This document shows positions 28,517 to 35,903 of a stretch of DNA of 35,941 bases, in pieces (position 1 is the first letter of the stretch; every line of letters starts with the position of its first letter). The position numbers and the translations under genes are program-made. The notes beneath the pieces were generated by a model that was given only the letters and a program-made list of their open reading frames with translations, was not told where the DNA came from and made no database searches. The stretch lies in the IMG/VR virus record IMGVR_UViG_3300017710_000021, positions 1-35,941 of that record; one strand, 5' to 3'. The stretch is from a virus.

Positions 28517-28822
28517 TTAGTTAACAAGGTCTAAATTATACATACTGTATTTAAGAGTTAGTTCTTCCCCTGGTTCTATATTTTTTAGTGCCGTTAAGTA
28601 TTTGTATCCTTGTATGTCAACAGTTCTGCAGTTCGGTTCGTCATTATGATTAACAAAACCTCCGAGTGGTGTGCGAATAAATCTATTAGGAAATCTTGTA
28701 TCATGTACATGTGATATGCCTAAGCTATATCCTTGCTCGATAGCAGTAACACAAAACAAACCTAACCCATCTATATCTGATACTCGTATCGTTACACATT
28801 CAGGCAGTGGTGTGTACCCCAT
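28517..28822 (-). CDS. SET-domain protein
   Basis: A 101-aa protein with the core motifs of the SET fold: SDIDGLGLF (15-23, the usual S-x-x-x-G-x-G-L/V-F start), GGFVNHNDEPNC (54-65, the NH-S-x-x-PN-C knot motif) and GEELTLKY (85-92). SET proteins transfer methyl groups from S-adenosylmethionine to lysines. This copy is minimal, without pre- or post-SET cysteine clusters, like small bacterial and viral members. The substrate could be a host or phage DNA-binding protein, but nothing shows which. It is translated by a TAATG coupling from the upstream gene and is last in the leftward block. Confidence 0.75.
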   Translation of the reverse strand: MGYTPLPECVTIRVSDIDGLGLFCVTAIEQGYSLGISHVHDTRFPNRFIRTPLGGFVNHNDEPNCRTVDIQGYKYLTALKNIEPGEELTLKYSMYNLDLVN

Positions 28823-29130
28823 TAGAAAGGTGCCTCATCTTGTAAATCTTTATATACTTTCTGTTCATCTAAAGTACTTACAAGTGCATGACATGTTGCC
28901 CATGTCCAGGCATGTGGGTTGTATTCATCTACAAGTTTATACCTTGTAGCACAAAAGACATTACCCTCATTGTCGTAGTAGGTATCTTTATTATCTTTGC
29001 ACAAGTAAGGTGCTTTGTGTGTACGGTCAGGTTCAGCAGGAATATCAAAGTTATAAGTAGGGTATCTTTTTTTTATTCTATCTAGTAACTTGTTGATTGA
29101 TTCGCTGCTACCTATTTCTTCTAAAGCCAT
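28822..29130 (-). CDS. small protein with SSB-like C-terminal tail
   Basis: A 102-aa protein with no recognised fold. It contains APYLCKDNKDTYYDNEGNVFC, possibly a small metal or beta element, and a Trp-rich helix (AWTWATCHAL). It ends LQDEAPF, which resembles the acidic -DD-x-PF tip of SSB that recruits repair and replication enzymes; actinobacterial SSB often ends DEPPF. It lies next to the Erf-like annealing gene, overlapping it by 10 nt, which fits a recombination or replication role. A second small gene here (31572-31847) has a DEPPF end. Confidence 0.6.
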   Translation of the reverse strand: MALEEIGSSESINKLLDRIKKRYPTYNFDIPAEPDRTHKAPYLCKDNKDTYYDNEGNVFCATRYKLVDEYNPHAWTWATCHALVSTLDEQKVYKDLQDEAPF

Positions 29131-29981
29131 TTATCAAATGGAAAGTCTTTGCTACCTATGTACCAACCTTTACCACAACCATCTTTGTCTGCACCATAGT
29201 TGTCACAAGTAAAGTCAGGTATGTTTTTAGCTTTCTCATTAGTTGCTTTTGTTTCTCTGTTGTCCTTAATCCATTCAAACTTTTGACAGTCAGGACATTG
29301 CATTTGTGTATCACTTATATCAGTAGTCATGCTGTCTAACATAGCCTTGTCATCTTGCATAAGCGTACCGAAATGACCTAAGAAAGTTTTCATATCTCCG
29401 TCAGACCAATCCTCTATCTCTTTAGGCAGGTTGTCTTCCATTGATTGTTGCCAAGCAGAATCTTTAATTTGTTTTCTTAGCTTTGCATCAGGACACATGT
29501 CTTTAATGATATCTGATATTTGGTCAGCAACAGATTGTTCATCAGCTCCTATGTCTTTAGAAAAGTCTTGCTTAGCTTTCTTAAGTGCAGCATCTTCTTG
29601 TTCTATGACAATGTCTTTAACTCTGCCTGTCTTCTGTATTGGTTGTACCTTACTCATCTCTTCTTGTGACGGTCTCTTTTTAGTACTACCTTGATACTTC
29701 CAATTAGCTAATGCTCTACCGATAGCTGATGTTTCGCAATTTTCCATCCAAGCATCTGCGTTTGCAAATCCACCTTGACCTTTAGTTTCTTGTGCAAGAC
29801 CTGTTGATACAGGGTTTACATCTTCCCTATTTAGATAGACCATTGCTTTAACAATTACCATAGTGCCGTCATCACTTGTTTTTACAACCTCTGTAAACAC
29901 ACGTCCATCAGGGTAATCCTTCCAAAACTTTTTTAGTCTTACCTCTACTACTTCATAATCATCTTTATTATATTTAGCCAT
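29121..29981 (-). CDS. Erf-like ssDNA-annealing/binding protein with zinc ribbon
   Basis: A 286-aa protein. Residues 1-100 include NPVSTGLAQETKGQGGFANA and CETSAIGRALANW (82-94), followed by KKRPSQEEMSKV. This block is typical of the Erf/Rad52-like single-strand annealing group common in actinophages. A charged helical middle follows. The end has a zinc-ribbon pattern: CPDC (229-232) with Cys259 and Cys269, seated in aromatic surroundings. It would bind and anneal single-stranded phage DNA in recombination or replication. The family is recalled from motif only; related proteins have sometimes been annotated as SSB. Confidence 0.65.
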   Translation of the reverse strand: MAKYNKDDYEVVEVRLKKFWKDYPDGRVFTEVVKTSDDGTMVIVKAMVYLNREDVNPVSTGLAQETKGQGGFANADAWMENCETSAIGRALANWKYQGSTKKRPSQEEMSKVQPIQKTGRVKDIVIEQEDAALKKAKQDFSKDIGADEQSVADQISDIIKDMCPDAKLRKQIKDSAWQQSMEDNLPKEIEDWSDGDMKTFLGHFGTLMQDDKAMLDSMTTDISDTQMQCPDCQKFEWIKDNRETKATNEKAKNIPDFTCDNYGADKDGCGKGWYIGSKDFPFDKWL

Positions 29982-30200
29982 TTATTCTCCCTCGTTAAGT
30001 ATCTTGTAGACACGTTGCCTACTTAGTTCCGTTGCTTTGCTTATTTGTATTACGCTCCAACCCTCAGCAACAGAATCATTTATTAGTTTAGTCCTGACTT
30101 GTGACAATTTATTAAGCTCATCCTTTTTACTATCCATTAATAGTTTATTAAAAGATAATAGTTCTAGTCCCACTTCATTGCTTTGTCTTTTATTAGTCAT
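29982..30200 (-). CDS. small helix-turn-helix protein
   Basis: A 72-aa basic protein. The C-terminal 25 residues form a clear helix-turn-helix (GWSVIQISKATELSRQRVYKIL), of the type found in resolvase-like and small phage regulators. The N-terminal 45 residues are a charged helix that may dimerise. The ATG at 30200 is chosen over the adjoining GTG at 30203. It overlaps the end of the upstream gene (ATGACTAA) and stops next to the start of the Erf-like gene. A regulator of the leftward block is likely. Confidence 0.65.
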   Translation of the reverse strand: MTNKRQSNEVGLELLSFNKLLMDSKKDELNKLSQVRTKLINDSVAEGWSVIQISKATELSRQRVYKILNEGE

Positions 30201-30471
30201 CACTGTTTAACCAATCTCCAATGTCTCCATCACTAACGTTCCACTCTACCTCTTCATTATTTTTTAAATCAATAATTCTATAACGTGTACTTGATAATGT
30301 ATTTTTTAATTCATCTATACTGTTGAGTTCTTGCAGCTTTATTTTTCTTAGCTCTGTTAAGGTAATACCAAAACCTATGAACACATCTCTAAGTATTTGT
30401 ACTACTGTTATACATATACCTGTTAACAATACAGTCATAATAACTATCAACACAACCCATTGTATCTCCAT
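30193..30471 (-). CDS. single-span membrane protein
   Basis: A 92-aa protein starting MEIQWVVLIVIMTVLLTGIC. One long membrane helix (residues 3-27) is followed by a charged cytoplasmic-like part with a coiled-coil stretch (LTELRKIKLQELNSIDELK) and an acidic end (DGDIGDWLNSDD). I take the ATG at 30471, placed two bases after the stop of the upstream gene with GAAGAAGAG before it. The longer frame to 30543 would overlap that gene. No family is recognised. Confidence 0.6.
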   Translation of the reverse strand: MEIQWVVLIVIMTVLLTGICITVVQILRDVFIGFGITLTELRKIKLQELNSIDELKNTLSSTRYRIIDLKNNEEVEWNVSDGDIGDWLNSDD

Positions 30472-30472
30472 A

Positions 30473-30733
30473 CTACTCTTCTTCCTTGAACGCCTCGTTC
30501 TCCACGGTGTCAGGATTGTCTGCCTGGTATTGTCCCTTTTCATTTCTCGCTCTTACTAACTCTCCGTCTTCATCAACTTCAAGTGTTTGTACAACTACAG
30601 GTACAGTCGCAGTCATTCCTGTAAGTATAATCTTATTGTCTACTCGTATGACGTTACCTGTAAACACTTGCTTGTCTTCTATCTTAAGTGCCATTAGTTC
30701 TGCAACTAAATCTTCTACTGTCATTTCGCTCAT
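30473..30733 (-). CDS. small hypothetical protein
   Basis: An 86-aa protein with a beta-rich centre (QVFTGNVIRVDNKIILTGMT) and an acidic end (AFKEEE). No family is recognised. The last codons contain a GAAGAAGAG stretch that can act as the ribosome site of the next gene. Its start overlaps the stop of the previous gene (ATGA). Confidence 0.6.
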   Translation of the reverse strand: MSEMTVEDLVAELMALKIEDKQVFTGNVIRVDNKIILTGMTATVPVVVQTLEVDEDGELVRARNEKGQYQADNPDTVENEAFKEEE

Positions 30734-30939
30734 TCTTCCTCCATTGCTTTTTCTACTTCGTGTATTTGTATAACCATATCATTATGGTCTTTGACAAACT
30801 GTTCTATAAGTTCATCTACTTTACTTACATTAGTTTCTTTTATTACTAATGTCTTCTCTACTGTTTGACCACCACATGCGTTGGCTAATTCAATAGCCCA
30901 CTTTTTTAGATAGTTAGGTTCGCCAAATAAATTAGCCAT
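30730..30939 (-). CDS. small hypothetical protein (MANLF start)
   Basis: A 69-aa helical, acidic protein starting MANLFGEPNYLKKW and ending KAMEEE. It has a good AAGGAG 5 nt before its ATG. The first five residues are the same as those of the 91-aa protein at 31572-31847, hinting at a shared N-terminal signal or old duplication. Function unknown. Confidence 0.6.
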   Translation of the reverse strand: MANLFGEPNYLKKWAIELANACGGQTVEKTLVIKETNVSKVDELIEQFVKDHNDMVIQIHEVEKAMEEE

Positions 30940-30969
30940 GATTCTCCTTATCCTGTATTGTTTTGTTAT

Positions 30970-31134
30970 CTAGACAACAACAGTAGAACTTGTTGTGAAC
31001 TTGACCACATATCTGCTCGGTTGGTCTTTCAGTTCTCTGACTTTCCTGTTAGCGTCAACAAGATTGTCGAACTCCCACTTACGTTCTTCACTATTGTATA
31101 TATCTATAGCCGTAACTACATACATCATACTCAT
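30970..31134 (-). CDS. 54-aa hypothetical protein
   Basis: A short frame read directly on the minus strand: it starts MSMMYVVTAIDIYN and ends STVVV. It fills an otherwise empty 235-nt gap and has normal amino-acid make-up (KWEFDNLVDANRKVRELKD). No strong ribosome site is seen. A plus-strand frame over the same bases is less protein-like. Confidence 0.5.
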   Translation of the reverse strand: MSMMYVVTAIDIYNSEERKWEFDNLVDANRKVRELKDQPSRYVVKFTTSSTVVV

Positions 31135-31174
31135 AATGTTACTACACATTTACAAATATTGACAACTATCATTG

Positions 31175-31456
31175 TTAAACTAACTTCAAGTTGTTACTTG
31201 TTTCTTCGTCAGGCATTGACAACAAGTAATAAATGTAGTGTCCCTTTTGTTTTGCACGTACAGTAGCTATGTCATAACCCTCTTTTCTTAGGTCGTGCAG
31301 TAGTCCACCGAATCTAGTACATCGTAACTCATAGACAAATTCTCCATTGCTTATCGGTTCTTCATCTCTGAATCTAACTAATGCCCAGGCAATTAAATCT
31401 TTCTTATACTTAATATGCCAGGGTACTCTTGTATTTCTAAACGATTTCACAATCAT
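31175..31456 (-). CDS. winged-helix DNA-binding protein
   Basis: A 93-aa basic protein. The C-terminal half reads RFGGLLHDLRKEGYDIATVRAKQKGHYIYYLL with the N-terminal GEFVYELRC before it. This is the pattern of small phage winged-helix proteins, in which L-R-x-x-G-Y-x-I-x-T lies on the wing side. It probably binds DNA as a regulator. Its ATG overlaps the stop of the 39-aa gene upstream (ATGA). Confidence 0.6.
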   Translation of the reverse strand: MIVKSFRNTRVPWHIKYKKDLIAWALVRFRDEEPISNGEFVYELRCTRFGGLLHDLRKEGYDIATVRAKQKGHYIYYLLSMPDEETSNNLKLV

Positions 31457-31572
31457 TCTTCCTCCTCTTGTATCTCTTCTATCCTTGCGTCAGTTAACAT
31501 GTCGATAACTAAGTTAGGATTTTCCTTGTAGTCTTTGTTGTTAAACATAATCCAATATGTTTTAGTCGGCAT
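31453..31572 (-). CDS. 39-aa hypothetical protein
   Basis: A short frame starting MPTKTYWIMFNNKDYKENP and ending IQEEEE. It fits exactly between its neighbours: its ATG shares a base with the upstream TAA (TAATG), and its own TGA overlaps the next ATG. The codons for the Glu run (GAGGAGGAAGAA) are the ribosome site of the next gene. Perfect coupling on both sides makes it likely to be real. Confidence 0.6.
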   Translation of the reverse strand: MPTKTYWIMFNNKDYKENPNLVIDMLTDARIEEIQEEEE

Positions 31573-31847
31573 TAGAACGGTGGCTCATCTAAAACTGCGA
31601 AGTTATCTCTTGCTATATCTTCTATCATGTCGCCTTTCTCTAGCTCCTTGTATAGAGATTGTAGATATTTATGATGTTGTTTTAGCATGTATCTTTGCTC
31701 ATCATATCTTGTATACCTTGCATCACTCCAGGACTTTATGCCTCGTCGCTTTTCTACATTGATTCTGTTTAACTCGTCTTGCAATCTATCAGATAAAAAA
31801 TCCAACAGCTCGTAAGAATCAACATGTCCTTTAAATAAGTTAGCCAT
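31572..31847 (-). CDS. small helical protein ending in an SSB-like DEPPF tail
   Basis: A 91-aa protein starting MANLFKGHVDSYELLDFLSD, helical and charged (RLQDELNRINVEKRRGIKSW; MLKQHHKYLQSLYKELEKG). Its C-terminus NFAVLDEPPF is close to the conserved tip of actinobacterial SSB (DDEPPF), the docking site for RecO, RecQ, PriA and others. A short helical protein with such a tip could lure or recruit SSB partners. It is coupled by TAATG on both sides. Confidence 0.65.
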   Translation of the reverse strand: MANLFKGHVDSYELLDFLSDRLQDELNRINVEKRRGIKSWSDARYTRYDEQRYMLKQHHKYLQSLYKELEKGDMIEDIARDNFAVLDEPPF

Positions 31848-32011
31848 TATTCTTCCTCCTGTAATTTTAAAGTAATAGTATCACTTGTGATTATGTGTTG
31901 TCCTAATCCATTCTCTTGTACCCATTCGTGTATGTGGTCAAGTGCCGAATAAGTTTCTCCACAATCTTCAGTAATTATATCTATTGTTAGTCTTTCAATT
32001 TTCATAGCCAT
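31847..32011 (-). CDS. 54-aa hypothetical protein
   Basis: A short frame beginning MAMKIERLTIDIITEDCG and ending KLQEEE. The make-up suggests a small beta-alpha unit (SALDHIHEWVQENGLGQHI). It is joined at both ends by TAATG, and its last codons hold the ribosome site for the next gene. No family is recognised. Confidence 0.55.
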   Translation of the reverse strand: MAMKIERLTIDIITEDCGETYSALDHIHEWVQENGLGQHIITSDTITLKLQEEE

Positions 32012-32154
32012 TATTCTTCCTCCTTTGTATTTAGTTTCGTAACCCTTTGTCTATCTAATTGTTCTGCATGTAACTTAAGTCCGAATGTTGGGTGGTTCAT
32101 TTGTGTCCCACCTTTTTTATTAGAAGCTAGTCTACGTCTTTGACTTCTATTCAT
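32011..32154 (-). CDS. 47-aa basic protein
   Basis: A short frame starting MNRSQRRRLASNKKGGTQ, strongly basic at the N-terminus, ending NTKEEE. It shares ATGA with the upstream stop and TAATG with the downstream start. A basic small protein of this kind may bind nucleic acid; nothing more specific is visible. Confidence 0.55.
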   Translation of the reverse strand: MNRSQRRRLASNKKGGTQMNHPTFGLKLHAEQLDRQRVTKLNTKEEE

Positions 32155-32393
32155 TCTTCCTCCTGTACTTGTGTAAACTTACCGTCTACTATCTCTTCGC
32201 TATGTATAAACGTTGCCTCTGATACATACGTTGGGCTATGTTTCATAAAGGTAATGAGCTTCTCGTCTGCTTCTTTCTTAGTAGTAGCCATGACAGTTAG
32301 CTCTCCGTCTATCTTGTACTTGTATTTCTTTATCATATTCTCCTTTGTTAACTCGTCGTCTAAGTCGTCCAATATCTCATCATCGAACCACAT
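32151..32393 (-). CDS. small hypothetical protein
   Basis: An 80-aa protein with an acidic N-terminus (DDEILDDLDDELTKEN), then a beta-alpha segment (YKYKIDGELTVMATTKKEADEKL) like small phage proteins that fold as compact alpha/beta units. The end is VQEEE. The start is uncertain: the ATG at 32393 is only two bases from the repeated upstream element. An in-frame ATG at 32336 has a strong AAAGGAG and would give 61 aa. Confidence 0.6.
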   Translation of the reverse strand: MWFDDEILDDLDDELTKENMIKKYKYKIDGELTVMATTKKEADEKLITFMKHSPTYVSEATFIHSEEIVDGKFTQVQEEE

Positions 32394-32395
32394 AA

Positions 32396-32426
32396 CTTAG
32401 ACTCTCTCCTGGTGCATTTGGTTACA
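32396..32426 (-). promoter_or_regulatory. bipartite early element, copy 1
   Basis: Minus-strand TGTAAC (32426-32421), exactly 18 nt, then GTCTAAG (32402-32396). It lies upstream of the 80-aa gene; the TAA inside TGTAAC is the stop of the gene before. The spacing and motifs equal those of six other copies. It resembles an ECF-sigma -35/-10 pair. Confidence 0.7.
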
Positions 32427-32646
32427 CATTAGTTGTAGGTTTTCCCCATAGCTTTACGACTGCTAGAAGTATGTAGAATATTTGCTCTATCTGTTCCTCG
32501 TTGAACAGCTCGTCATCCTCAATCATCTCCATGCTTAGTGTCAGTATCTTCATTACTCTTGGATTGTTTACCTCCCACATATCTGATTGTGACACTGCGT
32601 CTTTCAGCAATTCGAATCTCCTATCTATGAAACTTCTATCTACCAC
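32422..32646 (-). CDS. small helical hypothetical protein
   Basis: A 74-aa acidic, helical protein (FELLKDAVSQSDMWEV; MEMIEDDELFNEEQIEQIFYI). Its stop codon is made by bases of the early element that follows. It starts at the base where the previous gene ends. No family is recognised. Confidence 0.6.
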   Translation of the reverse strand: MVDRSFIDRRFELLKDAVSQSDMWEVNNPRVMKILTLSMEMIEDDELFNEEQIEQIFYILLAVVKLWGKPTTNV

Positions 32647-32891
32647 TAGAACATCCCAGGAAATTCTACGTTGTGTTGTAGTTCCTGCATGTTTTCTAAC
32701 TCGTCTGCAATCTCTTCTAAGTTTTGTATAGCTTCCTCTAGTTGCATAGCTTTCTCACTTGCCTGTAAATTTTCAGGCATGTTGTCGAGCCATTGTTCTA
32801 ACTCCTCCCTAAGGTTATTGACTTCGTCAATGTTTGTTGTTAAGTCCATGGCATTACTTAGTCTTGTTGCTCTGCTCTCATACTTCGGCAT
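32646..32891 (-). CDS. conserved coiled-coil phage protein (FPGMF end)
   Basis: An 81-aa protein: RATRLSNAMDLTTNIDEVNN, then LREELEQWLDNMPENLQASEK, then a long acidic helix and NVEFPGMF at the end. The LREEL-x-x-WLDN-x-PENLQ-x-S-x-K core and FPGM end mark a small family present in many unrelated phages, of unknown function. It has GGGAG before its ATG and an early element 27 nt upstream. It probably forms a coiled-coil dimer. Confidence 0.65.
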   Translation of the reverse strand: MPKYESRATRLSNAMDLTTNIDEVNNLREELEQWLDNMPENLQASEKAMQLEEAIQNLEEIADELENMQELQHNVEFPGMF

Positions 32892-32918
32892 ATTATCTCC
32901 CTTGTTATTACTTACTTA

Positions 32919-32949
32919 CTTAGACGATGCAACCCTGGAAAAGGTTACA
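32919..32949 (-). promoter_or_regulatory. bipartite early element, copy 2
   Basis: Minus-strand TGTAAC (32949-32944), 18 nt, then GTCTAAG (32925-32919), followed by the TAAG-repeat GTAAGTAAG and GGGAG before the 81-aa gene. The stop TAA of the gene before lies inside TGTAAC. The spacer has a short AACC / GGTT inverted repeat. Confidence 0.75.
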
Positions 32950-33247
32950 CATTAATTTCTTTTTTTCTCCATCCATGAATTGGGTGGTAACTGTTTTGAT
33001 ACGCATGTTTATATTCACTCGCATGTCTCTCTCTAACATAGTTCAGTAGATTGGTATAACTACTGTATCTTTCCTGCCATTCTTCGTGTGGAGTCATGCC
33101 ATTAGCTTGTTGTCTTTCAAATATAAATTCATCATTGAAGCCATAACTTTTAGACACTTCAATAAATTTTTCTACACTTCCCTCTAATGTTTTTCTTCCT
33201 CCGTCTTCTAAGTATGCGATTATATCTTTTAGTTCTTTTACTTTCAT
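32945..33247 (-). CDS. small hypothetical protein
   Basis: A 100-aa protein. The N-terminal half (KELKDIIAYLEDGGRKTLEG) recalls small phage proteins that begin with a degron-like or coiled start. The rest is helical and rich in Tyr, His and Glu (HEEWQERYSSYTNLLNYVRE), with a basic end. No family is recognised. AAAGGA lies before the ATG and early element copy 3 lies 20 nt upstream. Confidence 0.6.
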   Translation of the reverse strand: MKVKELKDIIAYLEDGGRKTLEGSVEKFIEVSKSYGFNDEFIFERQQANGMTPHEEWQERYSSYTNLLNYVRERHASEYKHAYQNSYHPIHGWRKKEINV

Positions 33248-33267
33248 AATATCCTTTCTTTCTATTA

Positions 33268-33298
33268 CTTAGACTATTGCTTCGTCTAAAACGTTACA
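33268..33298 (-). promoter_or_regulatory. bipartite early element, copy 3 (inside a gene end)
   Basis: Minus-strand TGTAAC (33298-33293), 18 nt, then GTCTAAG (33274-33268). Here the element lies within the last codons of the 57-aa gene, whose stop TAA is part of GTCTAAG. Spacing is still exactly 18 although the bases between now code for protein, which argues that spacing is selected. Confidence 0.75.
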
Positions 33299-33442
33299 TA
33301 AATTATTTAAAGTTTTTTGTCCACCGTCTGACAACTTGTCTGCATCCCATGTCAAGTCGCCTACTAAAGTTTGTATCTTTAGATATCTGCCTCTTGTCAT
33401 GAAGATATACTCAAGTCCTCCGATTGTTATATACTTACCCAT
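33269..33442 (-). CDS. 57-aa hypothetical protein
   Basis: A short frame read directly: it starts MGKYITIGGLEYIFMTRGRY and ends LNNLCNVLDEAIV. The make-up (LKIQTLVGDLTWDADKLSDGG) is protein-like. Its ATG overlaps the stop of the 45-aa gene (GATGGGTAA), and its last codons carry early element copy 3. No family is recognised. Confidence 0.6.
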   Translation of the reverse strand: MGKYITIGGLEYIFMTRGRYLKIQTLVGDLTWDADKLSDGGQKTLNNLCNVLDEAIV

Positions 33443-33572
33443 CTGTTATCCTTTCTGTATTTTCAACAATAAATTTGTTGTAGTTTTTATTTATATATTT
33501 AGTCGGAGAATATATTTTTTGTGATGAGCTTTTTTTCTTTGAGGCATTTGCCCTCCTGTATGCTCTGTTCAT
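33435..33572 (-). CDS. 45-aa basic protein
   Basis: A short Lys/Asn/Ser-rich frame, MNRAYRRANASKKKSSSQ at the start and RITDG at the end. It is joined to the Cys-rich gene upstream by TAATG with GGAGGGAAG before it, and overlaps the next start. Probably a nucleic-acid-binding or linker-like peptide; function unknown. Confidence 0.5.
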   Translation of the reverse strand: MNRAYRRANASKKKSSSQKIYSPTKYINKNYNKFIVENTERITDG

Positions 33573-33862
33573 TATCTTCCCTCCATTATTTTTAATATTA
33601 CTTTTGTTCTTGCAGGATTAAACAAAGTAGAGGAGCAACCTGTATTGAATGCAGGACTAAAGTCTGCTCCGTTCTCAGGCATACCTGCTTGTATCTCCTC
33701 GTACTTCTCACAATAATATTCTCCTGCCTCATCTCCACCTAGGTAGACACAAGCAAAGTTTGTTTTGCTTGTAGCCTTACCGAATGGACATGGCTTCTGC
33801 TTACAACAGAAGCCACTCCTAACGCAGGGTGCATAAGTTGTGTCTGTTTCTAGAACTCCGAT
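33572..33862 (-). CDS. Cys-rich conserved phage protein with non-standard start
   Basis: A 96-codon frame with YAPCVRSGFCCKQKPCPFGK, then FACVYL ... YYCEKYEEI and FSPAFNTGCSSTLFN. This matches a small family common in phages (APC-x-SGFCC-x-x-x-PC-x-x-G ... PAFG-x-GC), probably metal-binding. No in-frame ATG, GTG or TTG exists before the conserved part. The best start is ATC at 33862-33860, with AGAGGA 7 nt upstream; a -1 frameshift from the overlapping upstream gene is the alternative. Standard gene callers would miss or truncate it. It is coupled by TAATG to the next gene. Confidence 0.65.
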   Translation of the reverse strand: MGVLETDTTYAPCVRSGFCCKQKPCPFGKATSKTNFACVYLGGDEAGEYYCEKYEEIQAGMPENGADFSPAFNTGCSSTLFNPARTKVILKIMEGR

Positions 33863-34164
33863 ATAATTATCCTCTCAGTTCCCTCGACTTCTATTACTGA
33901 AGTGTTGTGTTGTAGCTCTTCCATAGTTTTTATGTCGTCGTTGCCTACCTCTTGCAAGCACTCTTCTAAGCTATCGTACTCTGAGAACTGTACAATTAAC
34001 GCTATAGCATCCATCTCGAATGGGTTCTCCTCGTCGTAACATTCCATTATGTAATCGTACAAAGAACTTAATCCCTCGTATGTAAACTGGTTGTTATAAC
34101 TTGATTGTTCTCCGAAGTTAAACTCGTCTACGAAATCGGCTTTGCTTAGTTGTTTTATTATCAA
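33850..34164 (-). CDS. conserved small acidic phage protein
   Basis: A 104-aa acidic protein: FTYEGLSSLYDYIMECYDEE, then MDAIALIVQFSEYDSLEEC and MEELQHNTSVIEVEGTERIII. The pattern F-S/T-Y-E-G-L-x-x-L-Y-D-Y-L ... D-x-IAL-x-x-x-F-x-E-Y is that of a small family seen in many phages and plasmids, function unknown to me. It starts at a TTG (34164) with AAGGAG 6 nt upstream. Its end overlaps the Cys-rich gene by 13 nt. Confidence 0.65.
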   Translation of the reverse strand: MIIKQLSKADFVDEFNFGEQSSYNNQFTYEGLSSLYDYIMECYDEENPFEMDAIALIVQFSEYDSLEECLQEVGNDDIKTMEELQHNTSVIEVEGTERIIISEF

Positions 34165-34195
34165 TGTATCTCCTTATATTTTTATTACTTACTTA

Positions 34196-34226
34196 CTTAG
34201 ACTATGCAACCTCCGAAGAGGTTACA
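34196..34226 (-). promoter_or_regulatory. bipartite early element, copy 4, with UUCG hairpin
   Basis: Minus-strand TGTAAC (34226-34221), 18 nt, then GTCTAAG (34202-34196). The spacer is a perfect dyad: AACCTC-TTCG-GAGGTT on the minus strand, a stem closed by a UUCG tetraloop. The flanks ACTATG / CATAGT extend it (34201-34230). Upstream lies an A-rich stretch like an UP element. Confidence 0.75.
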
Positions 34227-34244
34227 TAGTTTTTATTTCTTTTA

Positions 34245-34775
34245 TTACAACGCTTTAAACATTGTCCACATAAGATTCATTTCCCAACTATCGTAATCTG
34301 TTGGTTCATGTCCCCACTCTTCCGAACCGTAGCTCCCTGCTAGTGTTTGCTCGCATCTTCCACTATCAAACATTCTTAGGTAGTTTGCTTCGACGTGAAT
34401 CCCGAATACAAACTTGCCATCGTCATCGAATCCACCTCGTATCACGGTCTCAAGGTCTGTCTTCTTTTCGCCTGTAGTTCTTACAACGTCCTTATGTTTA
34501 ACAACTATTGTTATAGTTCTGTCAGCAACTTTATGACTTTTTAAGGTATCATTCATATTTGTCCAGTGTGTCCAATAAACCAAATCAATCTCTAAATTAA
34601 ATAATCTATCTGTCACGAGCTTATAACTAGGAACTTCTTTAATTCTTAGCTCATCTGTTGGTAACTGTTTGAACTCTGCCTTAACTCCGTAATGGTCGTC
34701 TAACCAATACTCGATATAGTTTTTAATCTCTTTGACTTGCTTATTAGTCATTTGTCTTTTAATTCTTTCGCTCAT
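34245..34775 (-). CDS. hypothetical protein
   Basis: A 176-aa protein, the largest in the right part of the leftward block. It is helical at the N-terminus (NKQVKEIKNYIEYWLDDHYG), then beta-rich (DRTITIVVKHKDVV, KFVFGIHVEANYLRMF), ending in a Trp-rich helix (SWEMNLMWTMFKAL). I chose the ATG at 34775, which has GGGAGG 7 nt upstream and overlaps the stop of the 35-aa gene. The longer frame to a GTG at 34826 lacks this and overlaps that gene. No family is recognised. Confidence 0.65.
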   Translation of the reverse strand: MSERIKRQMTNKQVKEIKNYIEYWLDDHYGVKAEFKQLPTDELRIKEVPSYKLVTDRLFNLEIDLVYWTHWTNMNDTLKSHKVADRTITIVVKHKDVVRTTGEKKTDLETVIRGGFDDDGKFVFGIHVEANYLRMFDSGRCEQTLAGSYGSEEWGHEPTDYDSWEMNLMWTMFKAL

Positions 34776-34879
34776 TCGTCGTCCTCCCTTTGTGTCTGAT
34801 AGTTTTCTATGCTTCCGTATAGGCACTGTATACAGTCTCCTAGTTTTGTGTAACCTTGGTTACATTCTCCCTCTGTCAT
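34772..34879 (-). CDS. 35-aa Cys-containing microprotein
   Basis: A short frame starting MTEGECNQGYTKLGDCIQC and ending TQREDDE. It has three cysteines (6, 16, 19; a CxxC pair). Its ATG shares a base with the upstream TAA (TAATG) and its TGA overlaps the next ATG; its last codons are the next gene's GGGAGG site. It may hold a metal with help from its neighbour, which also has CxxC pairs. Confidence 0.55.
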   Translation of the reverse strand: MTEGECNQGYTKLGDCIQCLYGSIENYQTQREDDE

Positions 34880-35115
34880 TATTCTTCCTCTCCCAAATAG
34901 CTAGCTTTTTCATCTTCATCTAAGCTATTTATATAATCCTGTTCGCACTCATCACAACAGTAACCTTCTACTATTGCTTCTTCTTCTTCGCTATATATTT
35001 CAGCAGGGTATCTGTTAACGTATCTTCCACTGCCGTAACTTGTATCCTGTCGACAGTGCACGCAGTCGTTACCTATATAAACTTTGTCTTCTCCGTTAAT
35101 TTTTAATCTTGTCAT
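34879..35115 (-). CDS. small zinc-ribbon-like protein
   Basis: A 78-aa acidic protein with two cysteine clusters: CVHC (residues 18-21) and CCDEC (53-57), about 31 residues apart, which fits a zinc ribbon. It ends YLGEEE. Such small proteins in early phage regions often bind host proteins. No family is recognised. ATGA overlap upstream, TAATG downstream. Confidence 0.6.
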   Translation of the reverse strand: MTRLKINGEDKVYIGNDCVHCRQDTSYGSGRYVNRYPAEIYSEEEEAIVEGYCCDECEQDYINSLDEDEKASYLGEEE

Positions 35116-35216
35116 TCTTCCTCCTTTACGAAGTTGCCTTTACTGTCTATTACGTGGTCGTTTATATTTAATAGTGCTTCGATTTCTTTTCTTTGTTGTT
35201 CTTTGCTCTTGCTCAT
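35112..35216 (-). CDS. 34-aa hypothetical protein
   Basis: A short frame starting MSKSKEQQRKEIEALLNIND and ending KGNFVKEEE. It has GGGAG before its ATG and early element copy 5 lies 19 nt upstream, the same layout as confirmed-looking genes nearby. Its TGA overlaps the next gene's ATG and its last codons give that gene's ribosome site. Confidence 0.55.
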   Translation of the reverse strand: MSKSKEQQRKEIEALLNINDHVIDSKGNFVKEEE

Positions 35217-35235
35217 TTGTTCTCCCTTTGTATTA

Positions 35236-35266
35236 CTTAGACTCTGCAACCTCCGAAGAGGTTACA
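35236..35266 (-). promoter_or_regulatory. bipartite early element, copy 5, with UUCG hairpin
   Basis: Minus-strand TGTAAC (35266-35261), 18 nt, then GTCTAAG (35242-35236). The spacer is the same UUCG dyad as in copy 4. The flanking pairs differ from copy 4 at matching positions (ATG/CAT against CTG/CAG), a compensatory change. It lies between the 95-aa gene and the 34-aa gene. Confidence 0.75.
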
Positions 35267-35281
35267 GGGTATTTAATTTAT

Positions 35282-35569
35282 TTAGCTATTCATCCATTCA
35301 TTGCTATATGCCCAGATTACGGAGCTACTCCTTGAAAGTATGTTCTCTCTTTTTGGCTTGAACTCTACCCACTCAGGATTTATAACGTAGCTTTGACGGT
35401 CTTCAGATAATATTTTCTTCTCGATTTCCTCAATGTCTGCAACGTTTCCAGTCCACCTATAGACTGCATTCGCTAGCATCTCCAAGGCTTCGTCTTCGTC
35501 CTTATGGTTCACGGCTATTTTGCTCTCGAATCCGTATCCTATAGTTACTTTGTATTTTCTTAGTTTCAT
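35282..35569 (-). CDS. small hypothetical protein
   Basis: A 95-aa protein with a beta-alpha start (KYKVTIGYGFESKIAVNHKDEDEALEMLANAV written in part), of the type where a beta strand pair precedes a helix. The rest is charged and ends NEWMNS. It has AAAGGAGA before its ATG and early element copy 6 lies 18 nt upstream. No family is recognised. Confidence 0.6.
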   Translation of the reverse strand: MKLRKYKVTIGYGFESKIAVNHKDEDEALEMLANAVYRWTGNVADIEEIEKKILSEDRQSYVINPEWVEFKPKRENILSRSSSVIWAYSNEWMNS

Positions 35570-35587
35570 TCTTTCTCCTTTGTATTA

Positions 35588-35618
35588 CTTAGACTCTTAG
35601 CCCTGTTGATTGGTTACA
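35588..35618 (-). promoter_or_regulatory. bipartite early element, copy 6
   Basis: Minus-strand TGTAAC (35618-35613), 18 nt, then GTCTAAG (35594-35588), followed by TAATAC and AAAGGAG. The outer bases AGACT / AGTCT and inner AGCC / GGTT again form an inverted repeat although the loop sequence is unrelated to copies 4 and 5. Confidence 0.75.
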
Positions 35619-35624
35619 GTCTTT

Positions 35625-35846
35625 TTAAAATAATTCTTTCGTTGCTTCGTTTATCCCTGTCGCTTCTCTAAATTTCCAAGGGTCAAAATTATCGTTAAAG
35701 TCTGCGAAATCATACTCGAATCTTCGAATTAGATTGCTTAATAGTATTAAGGTAGCAACACTTTCGTTGTCGTCTTCTATATTCTCGGCACTCTTTACAC
35801 CTAGATATAATGTTCTTGCTATTGCTTCAAAATGTTTCTTGGTCAT
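35625..35846 (-). CDS. conserved small phage protein (MTKKHFEAIA type)
   Basis: A 73-aa helical protein starting MTKKHFEAIARTLYLGVKSA. It contains LILLSNLIRRFEYDFADFNDNFDPWKFREATG. The layout (M-T-K-K-x-x-E-x-IA, a helix, then N-x-x-FD-x-x-x-F-x-x-A-x-G) fits a small protein common in many phages, function unknown. AAAGGAGA precedes the ATG and early element copy 7 lies 26 nt upstream. Confidence 0.65.
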   Translation of the reverse strand: MTKKHFEAIARTLYLGVKSAENIEDDNESVATLILLSNLIRRFEYDFADFNDNFDPWKFREATGINEATKELF

Positions 35847-35872
35847 TGTTTCTCCTTTGTTTCTCTTACTTA

Positions 35873-35903
35873 CTTAGACTCTTTTAGATTGAATTAGGTT
35901 ACA
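35873..35903 (-). promoter_or_regulatory. bipartite early element, copy 7
   Basis: Minus-strand TGTAAC (35903-35898), 18 nt, then GTCTAAG (35879-35873), followed by TAAGTAAG. The spacer has no strong inverted repeat, so the two boxes and their distance are the constant part. The last 38 bases of the window beyond it hold no visible gene. Confidence 0.75.

Follow-up and report, generated by a model that had tools for sequence, protein, structure and literature searches.

Phages that use the RNA polymerase of the host are as a rule transcribed first through the primary sigma factor. The actinophage phiC31 has several copies of one promoter type, which is off the sigma-70 consensus, across its early region; it resembles the case described here in this arrangement, and differs in that its early promoters reportedly need a phage product. 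Likenesses in sequence are found among promoters of extracytoplasmic function (ECF) sigma factors, namely those of E. coli sigma-E (GGAAC as -35 and GTC as -10), of which the regulon is concerned with envelope stress, and those of the actinobacterial ECF sigma-D from C. glutamicum (GTAAC[A/G]-N17-18-GAT), which serve the cell wall of the host. A different kind of repeated element are the Start-Associated Sequences (SAS) of cluster K mycobacteriophages, which overlap the Shine-Dalgarno (SD) sequence, have a proposed translational role, carry an inverted-repeat extension in half of the cases and are absent from the host genome (PMC3203893). The subject of this study is the bipartite element TGTAAC-N18-GTCTAAG, which is, like SAS, a multi-copy, oriented element upstream of non-structural genes. 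It was analyzed in a stretch of viral DNA of 35,941 nt, the whole length of the IMG/VR virus record IMGVR_UViG_3300017710_000021 (the window). Its seven copies most probably function as ECF (group IV) sigma-type promoters which are read by the host RNA polymerase with the single ECF of the host.

All seven copies are exact, lie on the minus strand between 32396 and 35903 and have no counterpart outside this span in the window, just as the original prediction, which was made from the sequence alone, had placed them. With two mismatches allowed, one further match was found elsewhere in the window, and shuffled sequences searched in the same way contained on average 1.42 matches, with none of 100 shuffles reaching eight. 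Freeing the distance between both boxes (8–32) yielded a single additional pair, at a spacing of 26. The start codon follows box 2 after 2, 18, 19, 20, 26, 27 or 31 nt, which confirms the claimed position of the copies just upstream of genes.

A preferred spacing is also seen in related phages. In carrier loci fetched from IMG/VR with stricter versions of the motif, GTAAC-N(d)-GTCTAA occurs 203 times at d = 18 and 35 times at d = 17, corresponding to approximately one sixth of the dominant spacing, but not more than four times at any other d, and within nearly every carrier contig the copies are on one strand. Loci that were fetched by exonuclease homology and not by the motif (680 kb) include 41 copies at d = 18, and no other d between 5 and 35 exceeds three. 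The search of window and related phages with other spacings as control, which had been proposed together with the prediction, shows the counts concentrating at 18 with 17 as second. An invariant spacing of 18 nt, as originally claimed, describes all seven copies of the window, but not the family.

A logo of 193 unique copies from the family consists of GTAACC followed by a T-tract, as it is likewise present after the AAC in promoters of E. coli sigma-E, a nearly free spacer and an A preceding GTCTAA. Upstream, it exhibits A-rich bumps at -19 to -14 and -9 to -5 from GTAAC, that is, a distal and a proximal A-rich subsite one helical turn apart, which is the arrangement of an upstream promoter (UP) element and agrees with the suspicion that such elements are present. 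Judged by these sequences, the anatomy of the element is that of a promoter with a putative UP element. SD sequence and start codon are found within 75 nt past the element for 88.6% of the copies, compared to 18.6% of random same-strand positions, and the median distance to the start is 25 nt (10–90%: 18–31). The description of the spacer as freely varying is nearly correct; yet an inverted arm, GTAAC-N10-GTTRC, occurs at a fixed spacer position in 26 of the 193 copies (5 expected) and a direct repeat, GTAAC-N6-GWAAC, likewise at a fixed position, in 16 of them (4.5 expected). These repeats may represent a second regulatory (operator) layer in a minority of copies. Rfam and tRNA searches of the phage regions yielded no match.

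The promoter character of the element is also supported by three sister phages (G008, G009 and G011), in which no copies of it were found. Upstream of their early genes lies TTGACA-N16/17-TATA[AG]T, and the leader is similarly short. Gene 32646-32891 of the window, for example, which is located downstream of the copy at 32919..32949 (minus strand), has an ortholog in G008 (70% amino acid identity; L216:6205) with TTGACA-N16-TATAAT in place of the element. An element found where the orthologous gene has a consensus sigma-70 promoter is most simply explained as a promoter itself. Both kinds of promoter thus share the location before orthologous early genes and the short 5′ untranslated region, but those of the sister phages are TTGACA/TATAAT promoters read by the primary sigma factor. 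At the element sites of the window no such TTGACA/TATAAT promoter was found, and sigma-70-like sites are fewer in the early module than in shuffled sequences (8 vs. 24.5). The statement that the element is not a sigma-70 promoter is supported by this replacement. Another relative (G004; L213/L214), of which the exonuclease is 92% identical, kept the distal early genes, but has no ECF-type element and no clear sigma-70 promoters.

Phage contigs with major capsid proteins that are 70–75% identical were binned in a metagenome-assembled genome (MAG) of the Actinomycetota (G017). The 42 genomes of the GTDB order of this MAG have sizes of 0.6–1.1 Mb and mostly contain two genes with a sigma-70 region 2, one for a primary sigma factor of approximately 350–360 aa and one for a single ECF of 194 aa. 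With a GC-content of 32–34% and a coding fraction of approximately 96–97% (host genomes G053 and G047), they appear Actinomarinales-like, in agreement with what has been published on Ca. Actinomarinales (1.1 Mb, 32.5% GC, 97% coding, two sigma factors; PMC7771536). WhiB, an actinobacterial marker, is encoded by one carrier phage. From the MAG binning, the genome type and this WhiB we infer that the host of the phage studied here is a member of that order.

The ECF of these genomes fits the element from both ends. Region 2 is most similar to that of E. coli sigma-E, whose -10 is GTC, and the recognition helix of its region 4 reads ISVTAAKVRLHR in all 16 genomes that were read. There, it has Ala/Val at the positions of Thr168 and Ser171 of sigma-H, which reads GGAA; in C. 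glutamicum sigma-D, which has the same Ala/Val pair, this pair contacts the T of GTAAC, and the promoters are of the form GTAAC-N17-18-GAT (PMC6338062, PMC11588781). Without recourse to the promoter search, the specificity residues of the host ECF thus predict GTAAC-N17/18-GTC. Compared to sigma-D promoters, the element has the same -35 and the same spacing, but GTC and not GAT as -10; compared to sigma-E promoters, it has the same -10 and the same spacing, but a T and not a G as second base of the -35. Use of sigma-D-type promoters by phages was not found in the literature searched. Overlapping the stop codon of the ECF gene, a further gene encodes a 123-aa protein (L258:1481-1852 and equivalents) with an HxxxCxxC motif and one C-terminal hydrophobic helix. 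This protein is not recognized by Pfam, and its sequence suggests a candidate membrane anti-sigma factor of the zinc type.

Promoters with the same boxes are also present in the host. The noncoding DNA of two host genomes (800 kb) contains eight GTAAC-N(d)-GTC pairs with d between 10 and 26, of which three each have d = 17 and d = 18 and the remaining two have other spacings. The gene of the primary sigma factor is preceded by GTAAC-N18-GTC in 31 of 31 host genomes (once with N17), 6–10 nt from the ATG, with boxes that are 100% and a spacer that is 68% conserved. In at least 20 host genomes, a gene for an AI-2E-family transporter starts exactly 5 nt past GTAAC-N18-GTC[AT]AA, again with a drifting spacer; one genus-like group has GTCTAA as second box of this site, identical to that of the phage. 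As this transporter site (family A) overlaps the end of an upstream open reading frame (ORF), a coding coincidence was considered and rejected, since GTCAAA variants and drifting spacers speak for a promoter. If the starts are the true ones, the short distances at the host genes and at the phage copy at 32396 place the predicted transcript start approximately 7 nt past GTC. The phage copy, with an in-frame ATG 2 nt past box 2, would then produce a leaderless mRNA as predicted for the host genes, provided that this ATG is the true start. The housekeeping sigma factor of the host may itself be ECF-dependent, since its gene has an ECF-type, near-leaderless promoter in each of the 31 genomes. Host genomes also contain an accessory cluster of small genes (L283-L290), which has GTAAC-N17-GTCTAA at its beginning, together with a leader of approximately 90 nt that is conserved and has two stems and two covarying pairs. 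This leader is not included in Rfam, and in many cases the product of the first gene in the cluster is related to that of window gene 32422-32646.

In summary of these properties, the element combines an AAC core in the -35, a GTC-type core in the -10 and a spacing within the 16–18 nt of ECF promoters (here GTAAC-N17/18-GTC) with a matching ECF sigma factor in the host and the same motif before host genes. The original idea of a two-box promoter of the ECF type is thus supported by the spacing profile, the logo and a class of host promoters that agree in boxes and spacing, and binding of the ECF to the elements, with initiation of transcription there, would be expected. Several points weigh against this assignment. 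The assignment of the host is indirect, and no exact copies of the element were seen in the two phage contigs of the MAG themselves. Host -10 elements are mostly GTCAAA compared to GTCTAA in the phage. The gene of the host ECF itself was not seen to have a GTAAC-GTC promoter, so that autoregulation, which is common among ECFs but not defining, is not evident. Finally, one host site with d = 17 (family B) precedes a relative of a phage gene and can for this reason not be counted as independent evidence.

The prediction had left open whether a host ECF, a phage-encoded ECF or a dedicated activator reads the element. Many phages encode such factors, and the window contains a 73-aa helix-turn-helix (HTH) protein along with many small proteins of unknown kind, so that a phage-encoded sigma factor or activator which is too divergent for detection has to be considered. 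We regard it as unlikely. Sigma region 2 (PF04542) was found in none of 35 carrier phage records, and PF08281 had no match above the cut-off in 11 records. The carriers belong to two nearly unrelated lineages with 0–9, mostly 0–3, ORFs in common, and none of the protein families occurs in all 11 carrier genomes compared, although some of these records are fragments, in which the absence of a gene is weak evidence. The most widespread early-gene family among them is a Rad52/ERF-like recombination protein. The family of the HTH protein is present in only four of the 11, all of lineage I, and has relatives in phages without the motif. A 286-aa protein common to both lineages was rejected as a phage regulator after sequence inspection, as its relatives in lineage II are Rad52/ERF-like proteins of 146–158 aa; it has no Pfam match. 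Moreover, the same boxes and spacing precede host genes that are not linked to the phage. Taken together, the lack of a sigma domain in the carriers, an element shared by two nearly unrelated lineages, one ECF in nearly all genomes of the host order and host promoters alike argue that the reader is probably the factor of the host.

The spacer repeats mentioned above, GTAACC..GGTTRCA or GTAACC-N6-GWAACC at a fixed position, might instead indicate operators for a repressor or an activator that acts on other promoters. With such features in only 42 of 193 copies, an oriented, non-palindromic element with a fixed distance to start codons and a UP-like region in front of it, a shortage of sigma-70-like sites in the early module and a sigma-70 promoter at the same place in sister phages, this is very improbable, but an operator layer could overlap the promoters. 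Still less can be said for an RNA or translation element in the manner of SAS, which would suit the location just upstream of non-structural gene starts and the hairpin-forming spacers of some copies. Here, the SD sequence lies downstream of the element and not within it at 3–7 bp from the start codon as for SAS, most copies have no hairpin and Rfam offers no match, while A-rich bumps and a fixed box spacing suit recognition as DNA. Where the start codon follows only 2–10 nt past the element (host genes, copy at 32396), the element would even be upstream of the transcript. Chance or coding constraint is a negligible explanation. GTAAC-N15-GTCTAAGT is also frequent in an unfiltered viral scan with free spacing, but this excess at spacing 15 reflects the background of a huge collection, lacks a shared context and was discarded as meaningless; counts in related phages collapse onto 17 and 18, and the shuffles and the spacing counts in both sets of related phages exclude chance.

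The promoters, all on the minus strand, would serve an early (non-structural) gene module at 28517..35846 (minus strand), which consists mostly of small ORFs. The copy at 35873..35903 has an A-rich upstream region and is followed by SD sequence and ATG at 26 nt past box 2, and that at 35588..35618 by an ATG at 18 nt. The copies at 35236..35266 (ATG at 19 nt) and 34196..34226 (TTG start at 31 nt) both contain the spacer inverted repeat TGTAACCTC-TTCG-GAGGTTGCA. As had been noticed before, one copy, at 33268..33298, lies within the preceding gene, overlapping the 3′ end of ORF 33269-33442; its ATG follows after 20 nt. The remaining two are the copy at 32919..32949, discussed together with the sister phages, and that at 32396..32426 with its predicted leaderless transcript. 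Further downstream, the module encodes the HTH protein (29982-30203, minus strand), a Rad52/ERF-like protein (29121-29981, minus strand) and, at 28517-28822, an early protein of 101 aa that contains the C-terminal portion of a SET domain (PF00856, 3e-9), which is unusual in a small phage. The capsid protein of the window is of the SU10 type, with actinobacteriophages as closest isolates (approximately 30% identity), and its exonuclease belongs to a family common in actinophages. In the relative G001, approximately 0.85 kb without listed ORFs (L208:10230-11090, just past the position of the right end of the window) separate the divergent late and early modules and are a possible origin or regulatory RNA region.

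If the elements act as proposed, host polymerase carrying the single host ECF would recognize GTAAC(C) with its T-tract as -35 and, after 17–18 nt, GTCTAA as -10, aided by the A-rich UP-like region, and would transcribe from approximately 7 nt past GTC. Every early gene or small operon would thereby be equipped with a separate strong promoter, of the class which the host appears to use for its primary-sigma and AI-2E-family transporter genes. It is conceivable, but on balance doubtful, that this large group of marine phages replaced primary-sigma promoters throughout its early programme by promoters of the only, probably membrane-tethered, ECF of the host, and that infection, by disturbing the envelope at DNA entry, frees the ECF from its anti-sigma factor and so activates the primary-sigma gene of the host at the same time as the early genes of the phage. 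Phage promoters that depend on the polymerase of the host are already known; new would be the use of an alternative ECF sigma factor for most of a phage's early programme, and a search of the open literature yielded no paper in which a host ECF reads the early promoters of a phage. Since an early gene can have a primary-sigma promoter while its ortholog in another phage has an ECF-type one, it becomes possible to study directly which class of sigma factor a phage selects. For a highly streamlined group of ocean bacteria, the results provide a predicted promoter class and a partial ECF regulon, comprising the primary-sigma and the transporter gene, and the element itself is a sequence signature by which many anonymous marine phage contigs may be assigned to hosts of this group.

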